Origin: an uncultured Bacteroidota bacterium
GTDB lineage: Bacteria; Bacteroidota; Bacteroidia; Bacteroidales; F082
Reading direction: 5' to 3'
Assembly (NCBI GenBank): GCA_937912115.1
Contig: CALDOI010000143.1
Location: 1 to 64,000, forward strand
Length of the DNA stretch: 64,000 bases
Shown: positions 43,392 to 61,156 of the stretch, piece after piece
Layout of the letters: every line of letters starts with the position of its first letter
Numbering within the stretch: position 1 is the stretch's first letter
Notes under the pieces: model-generated
Database searches by the model: none
What the model saw: the letters and a program-made list of their open reading frames with translations, nothing else
What the model was told of the DNA's origin: nothing
Position numbers and translations under genes: made by a program

Positions 43392-44456
43392 ATGGAAATT
43401 AAAAAGCCTACGTTAATAATTGATCTGCAGAAAGTCAAAAATAATATTGACAGGATGCAAAAAAAGATTGATACTAGCATAACAATATTCCGACCCCATT
43501 TTAAGACTCATCAATTAAAGGAGATTGGTGATGTTTTTAAGGAAAAGGGAATAAATAAGATTACTGTTTCTTCTGTATCAATGGCCAATTATTTTGCTAA
43601 CCATGGATGGAATGATATAACAATTGCTTTCCCAATAAATATTCTTGAAATAGATGATATTAATACTCTGGCAAAAAAAATTAATCTCAATGTTCTAGTT
43701 GAGTCAGTTTATTCAATATCAAACCTTAGCGATAAAATTAAATACCCCATTGGTATATTTATTAAAGTTGACACCGGTTACAACAGAACGGGATTACAAA
43801 AGGACAACCCGGAGATAGATAGTATTATTAAATTAACAATGGCCAATAATAAATATTCCTTCAAAGGGTTTTTAGCACATGCTGGTCATACCTATTTTGC
43901 CAAAGGGAAAAGTGAGATATTAAATATAGCTAATAAAAGCAATAGGATACTTAATGAGCTAAAGCAAAAACATATAGTTAATTTTCCTGACATCATAGTT
44001 TCTTATGGTGATACTCCATCGTGTAGTATCGCTGATAATTTTGAGGGATTTGATGAAATACGACCGGGCAACTTCACTTATTACGATGTTATGCAATATC
44101 ATATCGGATCATGCTCACTTAATGAAATAGCTGTTACGGTGGCATGCCCTGTTGTAGCTACGCATAAACAAAGAAATGAGATTATTATATATGGTGGTGC
44201 CATTCATTTATCAAAGGAATTTATATCTGCCGACAATAATTTCAAGTTATATGGTTATGTTGTAAAATTTACGAATATTGGTTGGGGTGAGCCTATTCCT
44301 GGTGCTTATGTATGCTCACTTTCGCAGGAACATGGTATTATTAAAATGCCAGATAATTATTTTGATGATGTAAATATTGGAGATATACTTGGCGTACTAC
44401 CCATTCATTCTTGTTTAACAGCCAATTTGTTGATTAATGATTACAAATTAGTTTGA
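43392..44456 (+). CDS. alanine racemase N-terminal fold / D-threonine aldolase-like PLP enzyme
   Basis: TLIIDLQKVKNNIDRMQKK...FRPHFKTHQLKEIG; IKVDTGYNRTGLQ; EIRPGNFTYYDVMQ. Confidence 0.85.
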   Translation: MEIKKPTLIIDLQKVKNNIDRMQKKIDTSITIFRPHFKTHQLKEIGDVFKEKGINKITVSSVSMANYFANHGWNDITIAFPINILEIDDINTLAKKINLNVLVESVYSISNLSDKIKYPIGIFIKVDTGYNRTGLQKDNPEIDSIIKLTMANNKYSFKGFLAHAGHTYFAKGKSEILNIANKSNRILNELKQKHIVNFPDIIVSYGDTPSCSIADNFEGFDEIRPGNFTYYDVMQYHIGSCSLNEIAVTVACPVVATHKQRNEIIIYGGAIHLSKEFISADNNFKLYGYVVKFTNIGWGEPIPGAYVCSLSQEHGIIKMPDNYFDDVNIGDILGVLPIHSCLTANLLINDYKLV

Positions 44457-47440
44457 TTGGAATTGCCATCAGGTTTTAGGATCATCCCCAAATTCTTTTT
44501 GCCATCAATTTTAATAACCAGATTATCCTTAAACCTAATATGCCTCACAAATTCATTTTCGAATACTGCCGGTTGTTTATCTAAAAAATCAATATCATAA
44601 GACCCATCACCAATGTATGGATTAACCGTAAAATATCCAACTCTAAAGGATGTAAGATTTTGGAAAAAGTGTGTACCCTGACTGGGATCAATCCTATAGT
44701 CTTCAAGACCCGATTCAACAATTAATCGCGCCGCAGAAATTTGAGACCAATTTACAGGGATTCCAAGCCATGGATCACTGGAACCCCATCTACCAGGCCC
44801 AACTAGTATATAGTTGATATCCTCTTTTATAAATATACTATTTAAAGTTTCAATATATTCAACAATTTCACCGGTCTTAGCTGCATCAAAATTTTGTGGT
44901 CGCACATAAACTATGTCAAAAATATTTTCAATAATTCCATTTCCTAGCGCTGATTTGGAAATAATTATGGAATCAGCGTTATCAATTTCATCATCTCCAA
45001 TATGAACGCTTTCATCCTTAGACGCTACAGGCCTTATCTGCAGTAGTTTGAAAGATGCTTTTTCACCCTTTGGAACATTCATATTTATTGCAAACTCTAT
45101 TTCCACCGGATTTCCCATTTCTTCTTCACCAAGCTTCAGTATCTTACCTATTATCTCGGCAAACGGAAATGTATTATGTTTTAATATGTTTGAAAAAGTA
45201 ATTAATTTCTTGCCATTATAATTATAGCCATCTCTAACAACATTATCATACATTATATAAGTTGATGCTATATCACGAATCGAATTATCTTTCTCAGCTT
45301 CTTTTATCCTAAGTTTTAGTAAACAAGTACCATCGTTAGGTTGTATTACAAAATCACGTTCATTTAAATCTAGCGCATAGAAATGTTTTTGTGTTTCTTT
45401 CATTGCCATTTCGGGGCTGGACGTTTGGAGAATATTTTTTGGATATTTTGGGCAAAAACGAAGGGAGAGTCCCCCATCAACTACATATTTTCCTAAGCCC
45501 AAGGCTATGCTTACAGTACCATCTGCAGGAACAGCAGGGTCTAAGGGGTAATAATCGATTGATCTGCCAACCCCAGAAATTGTTGGATAGTATCTATTAC
45601 CATATTTACTTCCTACTACTTCCTGAATTACAATGGCCATTTTTTCCTCATCAATAACATTGGATGTTGCTTGCATATATGCCTTGCTATCTGCATAATA
45701 TGCCGATGCATATACAGCCTTAATGGCGTTACGCATCATGTTAAACATAGCCTCCGGACCACCCTTACGAAACGGCAACATATATGTATTATAAATGCCT
45801 GCAAAAGGCTGATAGTGTGAATCTTCGAGCAAACTTGATGAACGTATTGCTAAAGGGCTTTCAATTGAACTTGCAATTTTAAAAATATCGGCATTTGTAT
45901 GTTCAGGTAAACTGGCATCTAAAAAACGGGCCAATATTTCATCATCACTTAGTTTATCAGATAATGCAATTGAATGTAGCCTGTTTTGATCCATAAACTC
46001 ATCAAATATATCGGTACCAATTACAACGGTTTTAGGAATGGATATTTCAACCTTTTTAAAATAATTATAAAGATTATTTCTTTTAACCAAAGAATCCAAA
46101 AATGCAAGACCTCTTGCTTTTCCACCTATTGATCCTTGCCCGATACGTGATATACTGAAGTACTTATCAAATGTATCACGATTAAATGATGATATTACTC
46201 CACGAGCTTTTGAAATTCTAAATTGTGATATTGCATTATATATAAATGTTCGTACCTCGTTAATATCTACGAAGTCCTCACTATTAAAATACCTAAATAG
46301 TTCTGCCAGCGGAAATAAAGCTCGTGCTCGGAGCCATTTAGAAAAGTGATTTCGCTGAATATGATATCGCAGTGAATTTGCCGGCAAGGTAAAAATTTTA
46401 TCCTGTAAATCCTTCAAATCATGGGCTCTGGCAACAACTAATCCAAACTTGGGATCTTTAAATACAAAATCACCAAACGCAAAATACTCCTTAATAAATT
46501 CTCTTAGATCAAATGTGAGTGTTTTTGAGTTTTTATCAAGAAACCCAACTCTTAATTCCTTTGCTTTTTTATAATTTTGCTGATCGGACGATTGCAAAAG
46601 CATGGGTGTGTACGGATTATCCTTTTTTATAATTGAACACAACTCTATTCCTGCATTTTTATCAATTTTACCATTACGTGCATAAGTTATGTCAGAGATA
46701 ATCCCAAGTAGGTTTTTCTTGTACCGCTCGTAAAAATTATATGCGTCTTCAAAGTTTGTTGCGAGTAGTATCTTGGGTCTACCTCTCATTCTCATCATTC
46801 GCTGATGCTCATTTAGGCCTTCATTCACAAATGACTCTGATTGCTTGAAGATTATTTTATACATAATTGGGAGGTAACTTGAGTAGAATCTAATATTATC
46901 TTCAACAAGTATTATCGTTTGCACTCCCACCTCTTCCACATCATTGTCTACGTTCATTCTATCCTCAATTAGCTTTATAATTGCCAGTAGAATATCAGCA
47001 TTGCCAAGCCAACTAAAAATATAGTCGATGGATCTGAGGTTAATTTTCTCAATTTTCAAACTCACCTCACGAGAAAAAGGGGTAAGCATAACAATTGGGA
47101 TATCAGAATATTCTTTTTTAATATGATCTGTTAATTCAAAAGTGGCTTTTTTTTCGGGACTGAGCATTGAAATCACTAAATCAATTTTTTCTTCCTTAAG
47201 TATTCTTATAGCTTCTTTATCATTAGTCGCTTTCAGAAATTGTGGCGGATAACGTAAGTTTAGTGAAGTATATTCATGAAATATTTGCTCATCTATTCTC
47301 CCATCCTCCTCGAGCATAAAGGCATCATAAACGCTTGATATTAATAGCACCTGATAAATTCGCTTTTTCATCAGGTTTATAAATGGCGTTTCACTAAAAT
47401 AAAAATTTTGGCTTAACACGTCTGCTTTGGAAGAAAACAT
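44441..47440 (-). CDS. tandem REC-like plus PEP/pyruvate-binding (PPDK_N) protein with novel C-terminal domain
   Basis: REC2-like TIILVEDN..IISDI..LLQSSD..FLDK; PPDK_N-like IRSSSLLEDSHYQPFAGIYNT, MAIVIQEVVGSKYG, PVEIEFAIN, LLQIRP; C-terminal GPGRWGSSDPWLGIPVNW...GTHFFQNL. Confidence 0.85.
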   Translation of the reverse strand: MFSSKADVLSQNFYFSETPFINLMKKRIYQVLLISSVYDAFMLEEDGRIDEQIFHEYTSLNLRYPPQFLKATNDKEAIRILKEEKIDLVISMLSPEKKATFELTDHIKKEYSDIPIVMLTPFSREVSLKIEKINLRSIDYIFSWLGNADILLAIIKLIEDRMNVDNDVEEVGVQTIILVEDNIRFYSSYLPIMYKIIFKQSESFVNEGLNEHQRMMRMRGRPKILLATNFEDAYNFYERYKKNLLGIISDITYARNGKIDKNAGIELCSIIKKDNPYTPMLLQSSDQQNYKKAKELRVGFLDKNSKTLTFDLREFIKEYFAFGDFVFKDPKFGLVVARAHDLKDLQDKIFTLPANSLRYHIQRNHFSKWLRARALFPLAELFRYFNSEDFVDINEVRTFIYNAISQFRISKARGVISSFNRDTFDKYFSISRIGQGSIGGKARGLAFLDSLVKRNNLYNYFKKVEISIPKTVVIGTDIFDEFMDQNRLHSIALSDKLSDDEILARFLDASLPEHTNADIFKIASSIESPLAIRSSSLLEDSHYQPFAGIYNTYMLPFRKGGPEAMFNMMRNAIKAVYASAYYADSKAYMQATSNVIDEEKMAIVIQEVVGSKYGNRYYPTISGVGRSIDYYPLDPAVPADGTVSIALGLGKYVVDGGLSLRFCPKYPKNILQTSSPEMAMKETQKHFYALDLNERDFVIQPNDGTCLLKLRIKEAEKDNSIRDIASTYIMYDNVVRDGYNYNGKKLITFSNILKHNTFPFAEIIGKILKLGEEEMGNPVEIEFAINMNVPKGEKASFKLLQIRPVASKDESVHIGDDEIDNADSIIISKSALGNGIIENIFDIVYVRPQNFDAAKTGEIVEYIETLNSIFIKEDINYILVGPGRWGSSDPWLGIPVNWSQISAARLIVESGLEDYRIDPSQGTHFFQNLTSFRVGYFTVNPYIGDGSYDIDFLDKQPAVFENEFVRHIRFKDNLVIKIDGKKNLGMILKPDGNSNQTNL

Positions 47441-47552
47441 AATCAATTATTTGCTTATAAACTATCTAATCCTGTTATTACAATAAAACTCGGTAAACTA
47501 GTAATGTTCAAATTTAGTTATTTTCAAAATTGTATTATATAAATAATTAAAG

Positions 47553-47577
47553 AATCCACTTTCTAAGAAGGTGGATT
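47553..47577 (-). terminator. hairpin between histidine kinase and REC-PPDK_N gene
   Basis: AATCCACTTTCTAAGAAGGTGGATT stem-loop. Confidence 0.55.
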
Positions 47578-47666
47578 TCAATTGTATATCAAATATGTGA
47601 TTATTTATTATTGAACAATTCTTAATTACAATAATATCAAATTCAAAATATACAGAACTCATGAAA

Positions 47667-50507
47667 TTAGGTGCTTAATGGTAGGAATACCTTAAATGTT
47701 GTTCCTCCTCCTTGGTTACTTACAATAGATAAGTGTCCATTATTATTCTTTGTAAACTCATTTACAATTACTAACCCAAAGCCAGTCCCTTTTTCATTGT
47801 CTGTTCCCCTATGTTGTTTATCACTGTACTTTCCTGATAATATATTTTTTATTTGCACCTGGCTCATTCCTATTCCTTTATCAGAAATGGATATTTCGGC
47901 CATATCGCTACTTTTACTTATGCCTATATTAATTAAGCTTTCCCTATTTGAAAATTTGATGGCATTTGAAACAAGATTTCTTATAATAATATCAATCTGA
48001 TTTTTGTCTGCATAAATGGATATCTGTTCTTCAGCAGTCACAACTAGTTGAATGGATTTACGCTGTGCCTGACCATGCAACAATTCGGCCACCATATTTA
48101 TTATAAAATTTAATTGAATAACTTCAAAATTTGGTTTTAAACTGTGCTGTTGAATCCTTGCCCAGGATAAAAGATTTTCGATAAGCGAATAAGTGGAGTC
48201 CAATGATGGTTTTAACGATGTAATGAGTGTAATAATTTCTTCATGCGTTAATTCGTCAACCTGCCCTACTATTAAATCAACTATTGACTTATTTGTTCCA
48301 ATGGGGCCAATAAGATCGTGTGCAATTATTGAAAACAATTTTTCCTTTGCGCTATTTGCTACCCTTAATTCATTTTGTGATTTACGGAGCTTCCTCTCAC
48401 CTTTAACTCTGAAACTAATATCACGAATCACACCTGTAATTCCAATTGGTATACTATCGTTATCAAATACTATTTCAGCAGTAAATGAGCAGTAAATAAT
48501 TCTTCCATCCTTGGTTTTAAACTTAATGTCATGGTCGTTTACTGAATTATTGTTTTCAAACCTTGCCGCAATTTTTTTCCAATCATTAATAAAATGATGA
48601 TATTCTCTAAAGCTAACACCCAACACTTCCTCCCGGGTATAGCCAGTAATTTTAAAAACCGATGGACTTACATCAGTAATAATACCTTTGGCATCTGACT
48701 GAAAGTAAATATCGGGGAAGGCATTAAATAACTGTCGGAATCTAAGTTCACTTTTTCTGATAAGTTCCTCATTTTTTTTTCGTTGGGTAATATCCCAGAA
48801 ATTTACAACTACCCCATTTATTAATGGATCGTCAAGCAAATTCTGTCCGTGCGCATATACCGAAATCCATTCACCAAATGCATTTTTCATTCGGAAATCA
48901 ATATTTCTCGACTTCCTATCAAGAATAAGTTTGTTAAATTCTTGTTTAACTAATCCAATATCATCATGATGGATAAATTCAAATGCACTCTTTCCAATTC
49001 GATTTGATATATCTCTGCCTATTCTTCTTTCATAGCTCGGACTTATATATTTTGTTGATCCATCACTACCAACTACAAATATAAAATCCTCCGATCTATC
49101 GAGAAGTTTTTCATAATAAACCTTTTGCTTCCTTACCAATCGTCTTGCTCGACGATTAATAATATTAAATATAATCATCGAAATTATCAAAAATGAAATC
49201 GCAAATATTACCAGTATTAATGTTGTTCTGATATGCGATTCGCTTGTGTATTTTTTTTGAAGATTTCGTATTTCTAGCCTCTGTTTCTCATCATTATACC
49301 TAGAAGTAATCTCATAAATTTGCCTGCTCTTTTCTAAAGAAAAAACACTATCACGAATATTGTGATATTTCTCAAAGTAATAATATGCGTTTTTATAATC
49401 GCCTGATGCAGCATAAATATTATTTAGCAAATTATAACAGTTAATAATTTGTTCGTTTGATCTAACCGACTCGGCAAGCTTGAGACTTTCAAGTGCATTA
49501 TCCAGAGCTAGCGTTAAGTTACCATTGGCTAAATGAAGTTCGCTTAAATTCGCCAACACAACTGAAACTATCGGATAATTATTAGCTCTTCCTACTTCCA
49601 GGGATTTTAAAAAATAACTCTTTGCTAATATTGTATCATGTAGGTCTCTGTATGTATCACCAATATTATTTAAACCAATTGCTATCCCTTCGATATCATC
49701 CAATTCTTTGTCTATTTCCAGTGAGCGGTTGAAGTATTCTAATGCTAGTTGGAATTTTTTTTGAGAACTATAAATATCACCAATATTATTTAAACAAGCT
49801 GATACTCCATACATATCATTCTGATCCTCACAAATTTCCAGCGCACGTGAAGTATAATTAAAAGCATCAACAAAATTGCTGTCGTTGGAGAAGATCATCC
49901 CCAGATTTATAAACGCTGAGCTGATTCCACTACTATCGCTTTCCACCTCAAATAAAGTTAATGCTTCAATCAGTGAAGATGTTGATTTTTCATATAAACC
50001 CATCTCATTATAACAAGAGCCAATTAATAGATACATATTGGCAGAGTTGATTTTATTTACTAATGTATCGGCAGTTGCTAAACCCAACCTGGCATATTTA
50101 ATGGACTCATCAAAATTATACAACCCCATATATGAATAACTCATGTACTCATAATTATCAATAATTAATTGGGTATTATTTGATTTAAGAAAAGTGATTA
50201 AGGAATTATCGAAATAATATAATGCGCTATCGTAGGCTGAGGATTCATAGTAAATGACCCCCTTAGTATAATCAGCTTGCGCAAGGCAATAATCGCATGC
50301 TATTTTGTCTGCAAGCTCATGAGCTTTATCAACAAAATCAAAACAAATATCATAATTTGGCAAGTTGCTAATTGCCGAATCACAAAGGTTAATTACCCTC
50401 AATGAATCAGCGCGATCATTACTATTAGAAAAACTTTTAATAGTTATAAAACTGAATAGTATTAATAAAATAAAAATTGCGGTAACCCGCCTAAATGAAA
50501 ATAACAT
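47667..50507 (-). CDS. TPR-PAS sensor histidine kinase
   Basis: Multiple TPR-like repeats (GDIYSSQKKFQLALEYFNRSLEIDKELDD), TM, PAS domains, SIIAHDLIGPIG H-box, HATPase N/G boxes (NLVSNAIKFS, DKGIGMS, GTGFGL). Confidence 0.92.
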   Translation of the reverse strand: MLFSFRRVTAIFILLILFSFITIKSFSNSNDRADSLRVINLCDSAISNLPNYDICFDFVDKAHELADKIACDYCLAQADYTKGVIYYESSAYDSALYYFDNSLITFLKSNNTQLIIDNYEYMSYSYMGLYNFDESIKYARLGLATADTLVNKINSANMYLLIGSCYNEMGLYEKSTSSLIEALTLFEVESDSSGISSAFINLGMIFSNDSNFVDAFNYTSRALEICEDQNDMYGVSACLNNIGDIYSSQKKFQLALEYFNRSLEIDKELDDIEGIAIGLNNIGDTYRDLHDTILAKSYFLKSLEVGRANNYPIVSVVLANLSELHLANGNLTLALDNALESLKLAESVRSNEQIINCYNLLNNIYAASGDYKNAYYYFEKYHNIRDSVFSLEKSRQIYEITSRYNDEKQRLEIRNLQKKYTSESHIRTTLILVIFAISFLIISMIIFNIINRRARRLVRKQKVYYEKLLDRSEDFIFVVGSDGSTKYISPSYERRIGRDISNRIGKSAFEFIHHDDIGLVKQEFNKLILDRKSRNIDFRMKNAFGEWISVYAHGQNLLDDPLINGVVVNFWDITQRKKNEELIRKSELRFRQLFNAFPDIYFQSDAKGIITDVSPSVFKITGYTREEVLGVSFREYHHFINDWKKIAARFENNNSVNDHDIKFKTKDGRIIYCSFTAEIVFDNDSIPIGITGVIRDISFRVKGERKLRKSQNELRVANSAKEKLFSIIAHDLIGPIGTNKSIVDLIVGQVDELTHEEIITLITSLKPSLDSTYSLIENLLSWARIQQHSLKPNFEVIQLNFIINMVAELLHGQAQRKSIQLVVTAEEQISIYADKNQIDIIIRNLVSNAIKFSNRESLINIGISKSSDMAEISISDKGIGMSQVQIKNILSGKYSDKQHRGTDNEKGTGFGLVIVNEFTKNNNGHLSIVSNQGGGTTFKVFLPLST

Positions 50508-50617
50508 TTCATTAAAAAATTTGTGCCTAGCTAGTGTACAAATTTATGAAAAATATGGTATCATTTTTTTATATTTTCAATAACACTATTAAATAACAAA
50601 GGTTAATAGACCAACGA

Positions 50618-53350
50618 TTACAATTTATCAATTATGGCCGTTGCAATTTCTTTATCGGCATTCATATATACGTTCAAAACATTATTTTTTTTCGATAAGT
50701 CGAACACTTTTAATACGTTGCCAAGTTCTTTCATCTCTGGCAGAAGTGAGTATAACGAATTCTCATAATGCTCAAAAAACTCCTTATTAAATATTGTTGT
50801 ATCATCATCGGGATAAAGAGGAAGATATTTAATATCGGCTTCAACTAAATCCTGAAAAAAATGAGTTCCAAATGAAAGGTCAGGAACATAATCACCACTC
50901 TTTTTGGCAATTTCAATTAGCATCGATGTATTGTTAATCTCTGAATAAGTAACACTTACACCAAGCTTAATATCGCCTCGGCTTCCCCACCTTCCTGGGC
51001 CCATTAAAATAAATTTATCATTCGACAGTAAATCATTAAGTTGGCCAACCGCAATACCAATATTTAAAAGAGCTTGTTGATTTGGTAATTCACCATAGGC
51101 AACAGGGTCGACATAAATAATATGAGTAATCCCCTTTATGGTACCATTTGAGATAAACTTATTCGCAGAGAATACAACGGAATCCGGTTCAATATTTTCG
51201 GGTAACTGTGCAGGTTCACTTCGCTGACCATGACTTTGAGAGCGACATTGTAGCAAATAAAAATCTTTCCCATCATGAGCAAATTCAATATCAACGGGGT
51301 TACCATAAGCCTTTTGCAGAACGGAAAGTATATCTTTTATCTCATTTAAAAAAGCCGTTCGTTTTACTAGTCCTTCAAAATTAACTACAAAACTACTATT
51401 AGAAAAATTTATACCAAGAGGTCTGGCCGGTTGAATATGATTTTCTTTTAAAACAGACACAACTCTGCTAATGGCCGGGTAATCTTTACCGTAGCGTTTA
51501 AGCAGCGAATCTATTTCAATAGTTTCAAAAGATCCTGACTCTAGATTTATTACATCAATAAATTTTGGTGAATACTTAACAACCTCATCAATTGTAACAT
51601 TAACACGAAGTCCGGGCTTACCTGGTGAAAGAAGAATTGGATAATCATTGCTTAACCTATCAACTGCACGGGTTCCTAAACCAGGAACTAGTCGAACAAG
51701 CCCATCCTCAGGAAGAATTCGTGGTGACCATCGATATTCATTTCTGCTAAAAGCAACTCCGGCAAATGAAGGGAAAAAGTAAGGGCCTACTTTTGTGCCT
51801 ACTACTTCCTGTATTAAAATTCCCATTTCTTCACGATAATCGAGAAGATTATTATGAAGTCGGTAGATTATTGGATCGGGGCCAAATATCGAAGCATAAA
51901 CTTCGGCAATAGCATCCATTAACTCAACCAACCGTTCCTCTTTGGTTCCCTTATTTGCTATGAATAAACTCTTGTATTTACCAGCAAAAACTGCTCCAAT
52001 GCGATCCTCAAGCAAACTTGAACTTCGAACCACAAGAGGAACATCGCCAAAATCTTCCAGAGCCATTAAAAGTCCTTTTACAATTTCGGGTGAAAAAGAT
52101 GAATTCTTAAACACTTGCAATACATAAGGGTATTCTTGACGAACCTTACCTATTTCCTTATATTTCTGCTCAACGATTTCCTCCAGATTATTGTATGTCA
52201 TAAAATTCAATAAGGCATCGGATGTTACATACCAGGTAACCGGGGTTTTTATCTTATTAAAAAAATCATATTCCTTTGCTGAGGCTGACAATATTTGCTT
52301 TGCAAGAAACAGCCCTGAACTTTTTCCTCCCAATTGTCCGTGACTATTTGTTGGGTAAATTATGCGGTGAAGCAGGTCTGTAAAGCTATCAACCTCAACA
52401 ACATGTTTTGCAACATCAATAAAATCGGACTGATCTGTTAAAATTCTCCTGATAAGTGCTACTTTAATACTTCTCTCGCGTGAAGCGGTTAGCTCCAACA
52501 TATTAGGAATTAGATGGTGATAACGCTCAATGGCAGAACTAATACTTGCGAGAGTTGAGCCGGAGTCTTCCATAACCTCGGTTAAAAAATCCGATTTATC
52601 CTCTTTCGTCCATCGTTGTATAGAATCTAATATCTTCTTTTCTTCAATATGTTTTCCTGCTACCTCAAATATTTCATATGATAATTCGATCATATTTACA
52701 CCAACCTGACGCTGATATGGCTTATTAATTTCTGAAAAAAGTTTGCCACCTTCGCTTTTAACCAACGGACTAAACCTTTCCAATAAACCATTAGCTTCTG
52801 AAACACCTGTCCAACACAAATAGTTAACCATTTTACGTGATAGCCGTACAAGAAGTTTTGGATCGGTTTGTTTTAACATATCCAACACAGCCCACCAGTC
52901 TTTACGTTGATCAGACTTTTGGTGTTCTTCAAATATTGATTTTAATTGCTGATGAAGAATTTGAAGGCCAATTCTTTCGGCAATATTATCAATTAAACGC
53001 CGCTCTTCTTTTAAAAATGGACCTTCGTCGGCCATGGGTCTTTCATCAATATAATATACCAGAATAGTTCCAACCATTTCATCCTGAACAAATATATCTG
53101 ACTTCAATACCCATTTGGTTTCCTTAAAGTTTTTTGATTGAAAACTATTTGAAAATGCTATAACCTTTACAACACAAATATCTGGAAACTGAAATCCTGG
53201 AGGGATTGATTTGATAATTCCTTCCCAAACCTCAGTATTAATAACAGAAGTTCTATTCAATAACTCTTGAATTTCATACAAACAATTAAGCTCTTTAGCT
53301 CTTTCCCTTAGCTCAACTATAATTTTATCTAAAGGTTCATTATCACTCAT
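50618..53350 (-). CDS. PEP/pyruvate-binding (PPDK_N) protein with GAF-like N-terminus and novel C-terminal domain
   Basis: VVRSSSLLEDRIGAVFAGKYKS, MGILIQEVVGTKVG, PVDIEFAHDG, LLQCRS; C-terminal GPGRWGSRGDIKLGVSVTYSEINN...GTHFFQDL. Confidence 0.85.
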   Translation of the reverse strand: MSDNEPLDKIIVELRERAKELNCLYEIQELLNRTSVINTEVWEGIIKSIPPGFQFPDICVVKVIAFSNSFQSKNFKETKWVLKSDIFVQDEMVGTILVYYIDERPMADEGPFLKEERRLIDNIAERIGLQILHQQLKSIFEEHQKSDQRKDWWAVLDMLKQTDPKLLVRLSRKMVNYLCWTGVSEANGLLERFSPLVKSEGGKLFSEINKPYQRQVGVNMIELSYEIFEVAGKHIEEKKILDSIQRWTKEDKSDFLTEVMEDSGSTLASISSAIERYHHLIPNMLELTASRERSIKVALIRRILTDQSDFIDVAKHVVEVDSFTDLLHRIIYPTNSHGQLGGKSSGLFLAKQILSASAKEYDFFNKIKTPVTWYVTSDALLNFMTYNNLEEIVEQKYKEIGKVRQEYPYVLQVFKNSSFSPEIVKGLLMALEDFGDVPLVVRSSSLLEDRIGAVFAGKYKSLFIANKGTKEERLVELMDAIAEVYASIFGPDPIIYRLHNNLLDYREEMGILIQEVVGTKVGPYFFPSFAGVAFSRNEYRWSPRILPEDGLVRLVPGLGTRAVDRLSNDYPILLSPGKPGLRVNVTIDEVVKYSPKFIDVINLESGSFETIEIDSLLKRYGKDYPAISRVVSVLKENHIQPARPLGINFSNSSFVVNFEGLVKRTAFLNEIKDILSVLQKAYGNPVDIEFAHDGKDFYLLQCRSQSHGQRSEPAQLPENIEPDSVVFSANKFISNGTIKGITHIIYVDPVAYGELPNQQALLNIGIAVGQLNDLLSNDKFILMGPGRWGSRGDIKLGVSVTYSEINNTSMLIEIAKKSGDYVPDLSFGTHFFQDLVEADIKYLPLYPDDDTTIFNKEFFEHYENSLYSLLPEMKELGNVLKVFDLSKKNNVLNVYMNADKEIATAIIDKL

Positions 53351-53354
53351 ATCA

Positions 53355-55091
53355 TTATAATGATTTATTGATTAACCCACGACCACTTTTCCCATCAACC
53401 TTTACGCTGATTGGATTTTTTATGCGTACATGACGAATTAAGTCTGTTTCAAATTCAGATGGTTGATTTTCCAACCATTCCCAATCAATTGGAAACTCAC
53501 CTGAATAGGGTATTGAGAAATACATAACTCCAAATCCGGTAATATTATGAAAGAAGTGCGAACCCTGACTTAATTCGGAATTCATCCCTTCGAGCGGAGC
53601 TTCAACAATAACCTTTGCCCCTGAGATTTGCCCCCAATTAACAGGAATACCGGCCCATGGGTCAGAAGTTCCCCACCTACCATAACCTATCAATAAATAA
53701 GGTTTTTCATCATTAGCAAGTCTTCTGTTTACTTCCTCCAATTCCGTTGCAACTTTATAAGTTATTGCCGCATCAAATTTGTTAGTTTTTAGATAAACGA
53801 TGTCACACAAGCCAGCATTAACGCCATTACCGAGCACAAAAGGTGATGAACAAAAAACCTTGTCACTTTTTAATTCGTCAGAAGTTACTTCAACTTCCAC
53901 ATTCGATACAACCATTGGCCTTACCTGCAAGAAACCCAAACGATGTGGTTTATCATTATTAAAAGTCATTGCAAATTCTATTTCTACCGGATCCCCCACT
54001 GAATCCTCACAAACCTTAAGAATATCTTTAACTATATCAACAAGAGGAATATCATTCAACCTAAGAATAGGTGCAAAAGTTAGTACTCGTGGACCATTTT
54101 TTCCTATGCCGGTTATAATTCTGCCAGATTTGGAATCCAGGGTTGAAGAAACATATTTTAATGTCCTATCGTTTTCGGCAATTGTTATATTTTCATTTAC
54201 CAGATATTCTGCTTCACTTACCGGATCATATGTAGGTGATTTTCCCATATTTACAGCCCAAAAGGTATTTTGAGTATTTTTAAGCATATCTGAAATCCCT
54301 CCAAAAGGGGGTTCTGACTTAGGGTAGCTTGGAGAAAATGACCATGACAATCCTCCATCAACAATGGTTTTACCAAGCCCCAAAGCAAGACTAACAGTAC
54401 CATCTTCCGGATCGGCATTGCCAAATGCATAATAATTATATGAACGCGCAACACCGGATAACTCTGGATAATATCTTGATTCATGACGTTGACCAATAAC
54501 TTCCTGAATTATAACGGCCATCTTTTCATCTTTGGTATTGTGTTTTGTTGCGAGCATGTAATCTTTGGCCGATTTAAAATATGTAGAAGCAAAAACAAAT
54601 TTTATACCTTCAACAAGCTTGTTAAATCTGGTAGTAGTATCCGGCTGGTTGTTAGGAGTCATTTTTGTTCCATAAATTCCGGCAAAAGGTTCATGTAACG
54701 AATCTTCCAGTATACTTGACGATCGTATTGCCAGTGGTGTATTTATCTGAGAAATAAGGGATCTCAAATCTCCCAGGATTTCAAATGGAAGGCTGGCTTT
54801 TTGAAAGGCATGAGCAATTCTTTCATCTGTAGAGTTTGAAAGGGCAATATTATATAAGTCATTCCTTTTCATAAAATCATCGAACACATCAGAACGAATT
54901 ACTGTCATTGAAGGAATATCGAGTGTTATTCCTTTATAATTGTTCATGTCAATATTATTGCGTAGTACATCATTAATTTCAATAAGGCCGGTTGCCTTAC
55001 CGCCAAATGATCCTGTACCAATACAAGTTATACGGTTTTCCGGATTTATAAAACTACTTCTTCCCAGTGCTACTATATTATTGTTATCCAT
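53355..55091 (-). CDS. PEP/pyruvate-binding (PPDK_N) protein, minimal form, with novel C-terminal domain
   Basis: AIRSSSILEDSLHEPFAGIYGT, MAVIIQEVIGQ, PVEIEFAM, FLQVRPM; C-terminal GYGRWGTSDPWAGIPVNWGQISG...GSHFFHNI. Confidence 0.85.
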   Translation of the reverse strand: MDNNNIVALGRSSFINPENRITCIGTGSFGGKATGLIEINDVLRNNIDMNNYKGITLDIPSMTVIRSDVFDDFMKRNDLYNIALSNSTDERIAHAFQKASLPFEILGDLRSLISQINTPLAIRSSSILEDSLHEPFAGIYGTKMTPNNQPDTTTRFNKLVEGIKFVFASTYFKSAKDYMLATKHNTKDEKMAVIIQEVIGQRHESRYYPELSGVARSYNYYAFGNADPEDGTVSLALGLGKTIVDGGLSWSFSPSYPKSEPPFGGISDMLKNTQNTFWAVNMGKSPTYDPVSEAEYLVNENITIAENDRTLKYVSSTLDSKSGRIITGIGKNGPRVLTFAPILRLNDIPLVDIVKDILKVCEDSVGDPVEIEFAMTFNNDKPHRLGFLQVRPMVVSNVEVEVTSDELKSDKVFCSSPFVLGNGVNAGLCDIVYLKTNKFDAAITYKVATELEEVNRRLANDEKPYLLIGYGRWGTSDPWAGIPVNWGQISGAKVIVEAPLEGMNSELSQGSHFFHNITGFGVMYFSIPYSGEFPIDWEWLENQPSEFETDLIRHVRIKNPISVKVDGKSGRGLINKSL

Positions 55092-55109: not shown

Positions 55110-56396
55110 CTAAACCCAACCCCTATCATGACAAGCATTTGCAACTCTATCAACCGAAATTACATAAGCTGCATCTCGCATGCACAGGTCATTATCTCTT
55201 GCAAAATCACTAACTGCTATATATGCAGATGTCATTTTTATATCCAGTTTACTTAATACTTCATCTTTTTCCCAATAATAATTCATATTACTCTGTACCT
55301 GCTCAAAATAACTGCAAATAACACCACCTGCACTTGCCAAAAAATCGGGTATTAGGAATATATTTCTATTCTCAATAATTTCTGAAGCATCTGGTGTTGT
55401 AGGACCATTAGCACCTTCAGCCAGTATCTTAACCCTTGAACTTATACTTTCAACATTATCGATGGTTATTTGATTTTCAATTGCGGCAGGGATTAATATA
55501 TCTACCTCTTGCTCAAGCCATGCTGCTCCATCAAGCACTTCATATCCAAGATCTATGGCTTTTTGTTTCATTATCCCTCCAAATTTATCAGTAATTGAAC
55601 GGAGTTCGATAAGATCTATTCCTGCTTCTTTTTTATATGCATAGCTTTTCTGATCTGAATGATCCCAGGTTGAAACACATATCACCTTACCCCCCATTTG
55701 ATTATATAACTCGAAAGCGTATTGCGCTACTCTTCCAAATCCCTGCAAACTGGCAATTGTATCCGAAGGTCTAATATTTAATTCTTTAAGAGCTTCCCTA
55801 ACTGCTATAATTACTCCATAACCGGTAGCTTCTTCACGACCTAGAGAACCACCCATACCAACCGGTTTTCCGGTAAAAGCCCCCGGAGCTCTATTGCCCG
55901 AGATAACCTCATATTCATCAAGCATCCAAAGCATATGCTGAGCATTAGTCATAATATCGGGAGCAGGAATATCAACATTTGGGCCTATGATTTTATACAC
56001 TTGTCGTACCCAACCACGGCACAATCTTTCTTGCTCAGTATCGCTTAAATTATGAGGGTCGCATATTACACCTCCCTTGCCTCCTCCGAGCGGAAGATCA
56101 GCAACAGCGGTTTTCCATGTCATCCACATGGATAATGCCCTAACAGCATCTACAGTTTCCTGAGGATGAAACCTAAGACCTCCCTCAACGGGACCACGGG
56201 CATCATTATGCTGTATTCGATAACCCTTGAAAACTTTTACAGAGCCATCATCAAGCTTAACAGGAATTAAAAAATGATGTTCGTGTAAGGGGTTTCTTAA
56301 TAGTTCGCGGGTAGCCTGATCAAGGTCAAGCTTATCAGCTGCACGATCAAATTGTTTTTGCGCTTCAAAAAATGGATTATAGGAATTGATACTCAT
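55110..56396 (-). CDS. gdhA: Glu/Leu/Phe/Val dehydrogenase (glutamate dehydrogenase)
   Basis: GPVEGGLRFHPQ, KTAVADLPLGGGKGGV, DIPAPDIMTN, ILIPAAIENQIT, ANGPTTPDA. Confidence 0.95.
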   Translation of the reverse strand: MSINSYNPFFEAQKQFDRAADKLDLDQATRELLRNPLHEHHFLIPVKLDDGSVKVFKGYRIQHNDARGPVEGGLRFHPQETVDAVRALSMWMTWKTAVADLPLGGGKGGVICDPHNLSDTEQERLCRGWVRQVYKIIGPNVDIPAPDIMTNAQHMLWMLDEYEVISGNRAPGAFTGKPVGMGGSLGREEATGYGVIIAVREALKELNIRPSDTIASLQGFGRVAQYAFELYNQMGGKVICVSTWDHSDQKSYAYKKEAGIDLIELRSITDKFGGIMKQKAIDLGYEVLDGAAWLEQEVDILIPAAIENQITIDNVESISSRVKILAEGANGPTTPDASEIIENRNIFLIPDFLASAGGVICSYFEQVQSNMNYYWEKDEVLSKLDIKMTSAYIAVSDFARDNDLCMRDAAYVISVDRVANACHDRGWV

Positions 56397-58464: not shown

Positions 58465-59289
58465 ATGTTTCAAATAGTTAGAAAACAAGAAATGGCTAAA
58501 GGTACTATTATCAGATTTGATATTAGTGCACCTAAAATTGCAAAAAAAATAAAACCTGGCCAGTTTATAATTCTTAGAGTTAATGAAACTGGAGAAAGAA
58601 TCCCGTTAACAGTTGCCGACAAAGACAGCTTTGCCGGGATAATTACAATCATTTTTCAGGTAGTTGGCAAAACAACTGCCTTGATGAGATCACTAAATGC
58701 TGGTGATATTATAAAAGATGTTGTTGGACCTTTAGGTAAAGCAGCTGAAATAGAGAAAACTGGTACAGTTATTATGGTTGGGGGTGGCACCGGAGTAGCA
58801 ATACTTCACCACATTGCAAAAGCATATCATGAAGCCGGAAACCATGTTATTGGCATTATTGGAGCACAGAATAAGGAAATGCTTATTCTCGAAAATGAAA
58901 TGCGGAATATTTGTGACGAATTAGTGATAACTACTGATGATGGGAGTCTGGGGAAACAAGGGTTTGTTACCGGACCATTGAAAACATACTTAAGCGAGAG
59001 GTACGATATAAAACTTGTATATGCTATCGGGCCAATAATTATGATGAAGAATATTACTAAACTAACCAAACAGTTTAATATACCAACAATTGTAAGTCTT
59101 AATCCGGTTATGATTGATGGTACCGGAATGTGTGGCGGATGTAGAGTAAAAGTAGGCAATGAAACCAGTTTTGCTTGTGTTGACGGACCCGACTTTGATG
59201 GACATAAAGTAGATTTCGATGAATTACAAAACCGAAATTCAATTTACCTCAAAGATGAAAAAGATTCATTATTATTTTCCATAAGATAA
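58465..59289 (+). CDS. sulfide/dihydroorotate dehydrogenase-like FAD/NAD-binding subunit (NfnA-like)
   Basis: KPGQFIILRVNETGERIPLTVAD, GGGTGVAILHHIAKAYHEAGNHVIGIIGAQNK, GMCGGCRVKVGNETSFACVDGPDFDGHKVDF. Confidence 0.93.
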   Translation: MFQIVRKQEMAKGTIIRFDISAPKIAKKIKPGQFIILRVNETGERIPLTVADKDSFAGIITIIFQVVGKTTALMRSLNAGDIIKDVVGPLGKAAEIEKTGTVIMVGGGTGVAILHHIAKAYHEAGNHVIGIIGAQNKEMLILENEMRNICDELVITTDDGSLGKQGFVTGPLKTYLSERYDIKLVYAIGPIIMMKNITKLTKQFNIPTIVSLNPVMIDGTGMCGGCRVKVGNETSFACVDGPDFDGHKVDFDELQNRNSIYLKDEKDSLLFSIR

Positions 59290-59350
59290 CTTGCTCATAA
59301 TAATCCATTACTTGAAATAAAATAACTAGTAAACATCAATACGCAATACT

Positions 59351-61156
59351 ATGTTTGATCAGGATATAAAATATCTAAAATTTAAAACCTATTTAAATAC
59401 TTATTGTCCTCATTGTCACAATAGTTTCAATGTTGAAAAGAAAGAGGAAAAGAGTATTGTTTTTAAAGCTCGATATGAAAATAATGATATGGAGCTTAAA
59501 TTAAGTCCGTATCTTGATGTATTTGAGATAGAGACTTCTGTCCCTATCAAAAAAGGCGACATTCTGGATGATGTAATTTGTCCAAAATGTAACCAAAGTA
59601 TTCTTAATTCTGAAATAAAATGTGGTGATTGTGGCTCCAATGTTGGTGAAGTAATGATATCAGCATTATCAAAACTGATGCCCTTCTACCTATGCACAAA
59701 AAGTGGGTGTGAGTGGCACGGGCTCTCAAAATCTGACGAAAGAAAACTACAGCTTAAGATACCCAGGCAAGATATGCCTGAACAAGACCAGAAATTACGT
59801 GTTAGTAATTATCAGGAGGTACCATATGGATATACTGGCGAATTGGCCTTACTTGAAGCAGGAAGGTGTTTACAATGTAAAAAGCCCCTTTGTGTTGATG
59901 GTTGTCCGGTAAATATCGATATTCCGTCTTTTATTGCTCTAATAGCTGAAGAGAAGTTTGATGAAGCTGCTAAGAAGATTAAAGAAAAAAATATTCTTCC
60001 CTCTATTTGCGGAAGAGTTTGTCCTCAAGAAGATCAATGTGAAAAACATTGCATTGTTGGTGTAAAAGATAAGCCTGTTGCAATTGGCAGGCTTGAGCGC
60101 TTTGTTGCTGATTATGAACGCAAAATGGATTTAGTTAAAGCTCCTATAATTGGTGTCGAAAATGGTAAACGCATTGCTGTAGTTGGATCAGGACCAGCAG
60201 GTCTTACTGTTGCTGCCGATATGCGGCAACACGGTTATGGAGTTACCATTTTTGAAGCATTACACGAAACGGGAGGAGTTCTTACATATGGAATTCCTGA
60301 ATTTAGATTACCTAAATCCATTGTTCAGTTCGAAATTAACTACTTGCAGGAAATGGGCTGCAGGATTGAAACAAACCATGTTATAGGCCCATTGATTACG
60401 CTTGACGAACTACTCGAAAACTTTGACGCAGTATTTATTGCCGTTGGGGCAGGCTTACCTGTGTTTATGAATATCGAAGGCGAAAGTCTGGGAAATGTGT
60501 TCTCAGCAAATGAGTATCTCACCAGAATGAACCTAATGAAAGCGTACAAATTCCCGGAATATGACACACCCATGCCAGCCGGTAGTAAGGTAGCAGTTAT
60601 TGGGGGGGGTAATGTTGCCATGGACTGCGCAAGAACAGCAAAAAGATCAGGGGCAGAAGAAGTAACAATTATATACAGGAGATCACGATCAGAACTTCCT
60701 GCAAGAGGTGAAGAAGTTCATCATGCTGAAGAAGAAGGTATTATTTTTAAATTATTAAATAACCCTGTAAAATATATTGGCACCGACAGTAACAAGATAA
60801 AAGCCATTGAGTGCATAAAGATGGAACTTGGTGAACCCGATGCATCGGGAAGAAGAAGGCCAATTCCAATTGAGAATTCAAATTTTACTGTGGAATGTGA
60901 TCTCGCTATTGTCGCAATTGGTAACGGCCCAAACCCAATATTATTCCAATCTTCGCCCAACCTCAAGTTAAACAAATGGGGGTATATTGAAGTAAATCCA
61001 GAGACCAACGAAACTTCCATACCCAATGTTTATGCAGGAGGTGATATTGTTACCGGATCTGCAACAGTTATACTGGCGATGGGTGCTGGACGAATAGCGG
61101 CAAATGCGATGCACAAAAAGCTATCGGCAAAACCAAAAAAGAATAAAAAAGCATAA
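59351..61156 (+). CDS. GltA/GltD-like NADPH-dependent glutamate synthase homologue (NfnB-like) with N-terminal zinc-ribbon module
   Basis: N-terminal YCPHCHN..ICPKCNQ..CGDCGSNV..YLCTKSGCEWHG; then CLQCKKPLCVDGCPVNIDIP, VCPQEDQCEKHCIVG, GSGPAGLTVAADM, GGGNVAMDCARTAKRSGA. Confidence 0.93.
   Translation: MFDQDIKYLKFKTYLNTYCPHCHNSFNVEKKEEKSIVFKARYENNDMELKLSPYLDVFEIETSVPIKKGDILDDVICPKCNQSILNSEIKCGDCGSNVGEVMISALSKLMPFYLCTKSGCEWHGLSKSDERKLQLKIPRQDMPEQDQKLRVSNYQEVPYGYTGELALLEAGRCLQCKKPLCVDGCPVNIDIPSFIALIAEEKFDEAAKKIKEKNILPSICGRVCPQEDQCEKHCIVGVKDKPVAIGRLERFVADYERKMDLVKAPIIGVENGKRIAVVGSGPAGLTVAADMRQHGYGVTIFEALHETGGVLTYGIPEFRLPKSIVQFEINYLQEMGCRIETNHVIGPLITLDELLENFDAVFIAVGAGLPVFMNIEGESLGNVFSANEYLTRMNLMKAYKFPEYDTPMPAGSKVAVIGGGNVAMDCARTAKRSGAEEVTIIYRRSRSELPARGEEVHHAEEEGIIFKLLNNPVKYIGTDSNKIKAIECIKMELGEPDASGRRRPIPIENSNFTVECDLAIVAIGNGPNPILFQSSPNLKLNKWGYIEVNPETNETSIPNVYAGGDIVTGSATVILAMGAGRIAANAMHKKLSAKPKKNKKA

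Follow-up and report, generated by a model that had tools for sequence, protein, structure and literature searches.

What does the ATP-binding domain of PEP synthase and PPDK do in proteins that have no recognizable swivel domain and no PEP/pyruvate barrel? Three genes on the minus strand of the 64,000-nucleotide stretch of DNA analysed here (the window) raise this question. Their products, P0001, P0002 and P0003, combine a PPDK_N domain with a C-terminal domain of a different kind, and they are encoded close to a glutamate dehydrogenase (GDH).

Gene organization and distribution

The three minus-strand open reading frames were confirmed. They belong to a same-strand run with the order GDH, 18 bp, P0003, 4 bp, P0002, 110 bp, histidine kinase, 220 bp, P0001. 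The run begins with the partner gene, which encodes a GDH of 428 residues (positions 55110–56396, minus strand; PF02812 and PF00208); its best NCBIfam match is GdhA_Arch, below the equivalog cut-off. P0003 (53355–55091, minus strand; 578 residues) is the minimal form and consists, by Pfam and AlphaFold2, of PPDK_N (53883–55010) and the shared C-terminal domain (53358–53918). P0002 (50618–53350, minus strand; 910 residues) represents class B, in which an N-terminal region of ~330 residues precedes PPDK_N (51194–52336) and the C-terminal domain (50621–51241). It is followed by a TPR-PAS-PAS histidine kinase of 946 residues (47667–50507, minus strand). P0001 (44441–47446, minus strand; 1001 residues) is the receiver form, with two receiver-like domains, a DUF5752-like region, PPDK_N (45008–46132) and the C-terminal domain (44444–45031). 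Its start is a TTG codon at 47446; position 47440, given in the initial annotation, corresponds to an ATG two codons in. Promoter and terminator scans returned matches at chance level only. A role in anti-phage defence was considered and set aside, as PADLOC gave no match.

The source genome (3.9 Mb in 321 contigs) encodes a fourth family member, P0004, of the receiver type (contig C126; L004 940–3843, minus strand). Its contig is 6.6 kb long and shows no GDH. The same genome contains a true PPDK on contig C229 and, on contig C145 (L006 847–3558, minus strand), a protein with a long N-terminal extension and PPDK_N followed by a normal TSHAA swivel, with no barrel before the stop codon; an isocitrate dehydrogenase-like gene comes next. 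Since the organism encodes both of these proteins, absence of the swivel is a trait of the family and cannot be ascribed to the organism.

Members of the family occurred in 34 of 198 genomes taken from the phylum and in 53 of 61 Bacteroidaceae genomes sampled, and a search of a genome collection returned at least 581 stretches that carry one; despite this abundance, databases name its ATP domain only. Loci from named genomes fall in Bacteroidota, Acidobacteriota, Ignavibacteriota, Planctomycetota, Calditrichota, Eiseniibacteriota, Zixibacteria, Actinomycetota, Spirochaetota, Bacillota (Sporomusa), Myxococcota and Bdellovibrionota, and in an archaeon (Thermoplasmatota).

The ATP-grasp domain

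PF01326 (PPDK_N) matches all three proteins, with Pfam E-values of 2.8e-42 for P0001, 9e-55 for P0002 and 9.9e-36 for P0003, which bears out the PPDK_N-like signatures reported in the initial annotation. The motifs listed there (RSSS, IQEV, IEFA...LQ, GRWG and HFF) all lie where it had placed them. Residues K32, R123, E372, Q389 and R391 of the ATP site (P0003 numbering) are conserved at 90% or more among 111 sequences, and we take them to be the equivalents of PPDK K22, R92, E323, Q335 and R337. A Foldseek search with the model of whole P0003 retrieved rifampin phosphotransferase, PEP synthase and PPDK, the top structural matches of the ATP domain being 5hv1, 5hv6 and 9goj. Judged by their sequences, the three proteins are homologous to the ATP domain of these enzymes. 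In its known relatives, PPDK_N takes a phosphoryl group from ATP and places it on a histidine.

The shared C-terminal domain

PPDK_N is followed in P0001, P0002 and P0003 by a common domain of ~190 residues, directly after which each protein ends. Its signature, GRWG...G[ST]HFF, is invariant, reading GRWG...SQGSHFF in P0003 and GRWGSRGD...SFGTHFF in P0002. Among 111 aligned homologous regions, drawn from named genomes as well as from the window, the residues G471, R472, G474, G481, E497, S508, H512, F513 and F514 (P0003 numbering; the H512 codon is at 53556–53558, minus strand) do not vary. The common signature first noticed in three paralogs is therefore no product of chance. In all loci scanned, the domain appeared exclusively together with PPDK_N (168 of 168), and no Pfam family covers it.

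AlphaFold2 predicted whole P0003 with a pLDDT of 92.8 and a pTM of 0.92, and the C-terminal domain alone with a pLDDT of 90.5. Neither the swivel (PF00391) nor the PEP barrel (PF02896) was matched by Pfam in the three proteins at E ≤ 1, nor, with the limit relaxed to E ≤ 10, in the C-terminal domains of 49 members. A hidden canonical swivel was equally not found by HMMER against the PDB, by hhalign with swivel and full PEP synthase profiles, or by Foldseek, which returned nothing at E ≤ 0.001 for the isolated domain among 350,542 PDB chains, swivel structures included. The initial annotation had recognized no swivel or PEP-barrel motif, and these structure and profile comparisons agree with it. 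VAMP7/longin-like matches of the C-terminal profile (E 0.007, HMMER against the PDB) were judged to be chance, and the best match in a viral fold library (E 0.037), an unnamed entry, was not used.

The domain may nevertheless be a diverged swivel phosphohistidine domain, in which case the proteins would resemble a PEP synthase without its barrel and would pass phosphate to a protein. The profile alignment with PEP synthase extends beyond PPDK_N to around residue 434, that is, to the first swivel strands and hairpin, and the predicted order of strands and helices is similar to that of the swivel. In the AlphaFold2 model a strand and a loop containing Gly lead into a helix whose start is capped by H512, a local arrangement that appears to resemble that of the swivel histidine. 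However, hhalign of the domain with swivel profiles yields no alignment to the swivel, and the negative Foldseek and PF00391 results also speak against such an origin. Common descent with the swivel is possible, but we consider the full proposal rather doubtful. Its subject is where the domain comes from and what chemistry it performs, and it is compatible with a role at GDH. The predicted setting of H512 makes the HFF histidine a plausible phosphate acceptor.

Linkage to glutamate dehydrogenase

A wider search for the GRWG...HFF domain and its neighbourhoods, as suggested in the initial annotation, found the domain across phyla and linked to GDH. At 52 of 80 loci, taken from named genomes and picked by family sequence alone, a GDH gene lies within 600 bp; these loci cover at least 15 phyla, including one archaeon. 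The figure is 33 of 45 for loci flanked by 1.5 kb or more on each side, and the chance expectation is 0.4% per locus, assuming a rough three GDH-family genes per 4 Mb. Clustering of neighbours placed GDH at 72 loci, which makes it the most frequent conserved neighbour by a wide margin, followed by a metallophosphoesterase family at 16.

The linkage is specific to GDH class. All 28 linked proteins of the minimal form adjoin a GDH of the 428-residue class, and 55 of 60 linked receiver-form proteins adjoin one of the 446/453-residue class; those partner 446/453 GDHs that were tested score above the NADP-GDH equivalog cut-off. Several GDHs in a genome accompany several partner genes (L049–L053 and the archaeal locus L111), and at L048–L053 two or three GDHs are interspersed with one or two genes of the family. 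L111 carries a GDH, a receiver-type member, a class B member, a metallophosphoesterase, a second GDH and a second receiver-type member. Among Bacteroidaceae, 15 of the 40 cases examined lie within 600 bp of GDH, in divergent, convergent and co-directional arrangements (five loci each), a pattern for which inherited synteny alone is a poor explanation.

GDH adjacency across many phyla and in an archaeon points to dedicated control of the enzyme. A functional link between the family and GDH is well supported, and we favour, as the probable reading of these sequence comparisons, that P0001, P0002 and P0003 belong to one widespread ATP-grasp family of dedicated GDH partners, most likely regulators that depend on ATP and respond to signals. 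Some observations weigh against a role at GDH. About one third of the loci have no GDH nearby, and in the window a distance of 7.7 kb separates P0001 itself from the GDH. Linked and unlinked GDHs of the 453 class are separated by essentially no distinguishing residue, so that no modification site is visible; in the 428 class, the two groups differ everywhere because the linked enzymes form a clade of their own.

Other genes recur in these neighbourhoods. At 16 loci (for instance L039 13337–14173 and L111 14803–15672) the class B gene has as its direct neighbour a calcineurin-like metallophosphoesterase, possibly a reversing phosphatase or phosphodiesterase. Receiver-type members without a nearby GDH at L123, L129 and L151 adjoin 2-oxoacid:ferredoxin oxidoreductase genes (POR domains), possibly a step that consumes 2-oxoglutarate. 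Two Nfn-like genes, or the large-subunit part of such a pair, occur near the family in the window (58465–61156), at L111 (20265–21674) and at L125 (2738–5091), which suggests a link to glutamate fermentation or NADPH balance.

Subfamilies and regulatory domains

In the protein tree, class B (P0002 type) is a fully supported clade; the minimal form (P0003 type) makes up another clade, and P0001 represents a receiver type. The first receiver of P0001 (PF00072, 7e-08) is a degenerate copy without the phospho-accepting aspartate. The second, which was read from its sequence, has no Pfam match and carries an insertion, appears intact: E182/D183, D252, S286/S287 and K305 are present and are conserved across 86 receiver-type proteins, D252 (codon at 46691–46693, minus strand) being the putative phospho-acceptor. 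The histidine kinase encoded between P0002 and P0001 is a possible cognate kinase of this receiver. Its nearest NCBIfam model is FimS, at a score well under the cut-off, and a TPR-PAS-PAS histidine kinase was not found at the other loci.

In class B, a nucleotidyltransferase domain (PF01909, NTP_transf_2) with an intact GS...SDID motif forms the C-terminal end of 33 of 40 proteins. The Pol-beta nucleotidyltransferase motif GS...DxD is absent from P0002 of the window, and the domain has been lost in this protein as in its closest relatives, L076 and L096. Residues 1–330 of P0002 have no Pfam match. The region is conserved in class B (ERaKELnClY...GwQyP...PFLkEE) and presumably resembles the sensor modules that precede histidine kinases.

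Receivers and nucleotidyltransferases belong to signalling, and their presence speaks for a regulator rather than a metabolic enzyme. The initial annotation read the proteins as phosphotransferases with a different acceptor, possibly the HFF histidine, or as nucleotide sensors. Its core stands, with a distinct shared domain, no swivel and conserved ATP-site residues; the GDH partner, the receiver and the nucleotidyltransferase were missing from it.

Proposed mechanism and alternative explanations

If the proteins act as regulators of GDH, the PPDK_N domain would bind ATP and phosphorylate the HFF histidine or another residue of the C-terminal domain, and the phosphate would then pass from the histidine to GDH or another target. 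Alternatively, ATP could drive a conformational switch by which the C-terminal domain grips or releases GDH. The activity of P0001 may be set by whether its second receiver is phosphorylated, perhaps by the histidine kinase encoded next to it. In class B relatives of P0002, the nucleotidyltransferase may attach a nucleotide or take one off, in the way that GlnE and GlnD work in nitrogen control. On sequence grounds the chemistry of the family possibly includes covalent modification by way of the invariant histidine. Combined, these elements would make up an undescribed GDH control system, in which a PPDK_N kinase charges the invariant histidine of a domain with a new fold and modifies, reversibly, the GDH class with which it is paired; receiver and nucleotidyltransferase domains would tune this modification, and the metallophosphoesterase might reverse it. 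We put this complete scheme forward tentatively, as one somewhat more apt to fail in some part than to hold throughout.

A non-covalent energy sensor would account for the GDH linkage equally well. In such a system PPDK_N would bind ATP, ADP or AMP and the C-terminal domain would serve as an external allosteric subunit of GDH. The proteins contain no recognizable phosphate-carrier domain, and the linked 453-class GDHs have no special site, so that this sensor stays a real rival. However, the catalytic residues and the C-terminal histidine are invariant or nearly so, which is stricter than nucleotide binding needs, and class B relatives carry a nucleotidyltransferase with its motif intact. On balance we regard a purely non-covalent sensor as unlikely.

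It is more improbable still that the family comprises metabolic enzymes of the glutamate/2-oxoglutarate node, which would transfer phosphate by way of the histidine to a small molecule such as 2-oxoglutarate, glutamate or an ammonia derivative. The 2-oxoacid:ferredoxin oxidoreductase and Nfn-like neighbours would suit this role, but the proteins have no substrate barrel, some contain the signalling domains described above, and there is one partner per GDH class; the absence of both swivel and barrel argues against a metabolic dikinase. That the neighbourhood is ancestral synteny only and the proteins act elsewhere, as the loci without GDH might suggest, is very improbable, because the linkage persists across phyla though orientation and partner class vary.

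GDH is a junction of carbon and nitrogen metabolism, and reversible inactivation of Bacteroides GDH in vivo was reportedly observed in the 1980s. If our reading is correct, nitrogen control would gain a new class through this family, and the PPDK_N fold a new use.

Comparison with known systems

In the open-licence literature we found no published description of this architecture or of its link to GDH, and no characterisation of the exact architecture, a point on which the initial annotation had made its reading depend. Baggio and Morrison (1996; cited in PMC4539542) reportedly described an effect on GDH activity of one or more trans-acting genes located downstream of gdhA in Bacteroides thetaiotaomicron. 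In some Bacteroidaceae, members of the family are encoded immediately downstream of gdhA, a comparable position; an identity of the two is a lead only, and if it is correct the family would provide a candidate for the unnamed gene or genes of 1996.

The family resembles PEP synthase and PPDK (PF01326, PF00391 and PF02896) in the GGK, RSS and E-x-EFA...LQxR motifs of PPDK_N, but differs from them in its C-terminal domain, in having no recognizable swivel or PEP/pyruvate barrel, and in its linkage to GDH. Rifampin phosphotransferase, PigC, RedH and HpeI-like PPDK_N proteins likewise reuse PPDK_N with another acceptor; in contrast to the family, rifampin phosphotransferase keeps the classical His domain, and the sequence similarity ends at the ATP domain. 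Like GlnE and GlnD, which act on GS and PII, most relatives of P0002 contain NTP_transf_2, here at the C-terminal end, and adjoin a gene for an enzyme of nitrogen metabolism. The remainder of these proteins is not homologous, however, P0002 of the window has no such domain, and the partner is GDH. With its two N-terminal receiver-like domains, the second bearing the Asp/Ser/Lys signature, P0001 is similar to atypical response regulators with an enzymatic output, but its second receiver carries an insertion and its output consists of PPDK_N and the new C-terminal domain.
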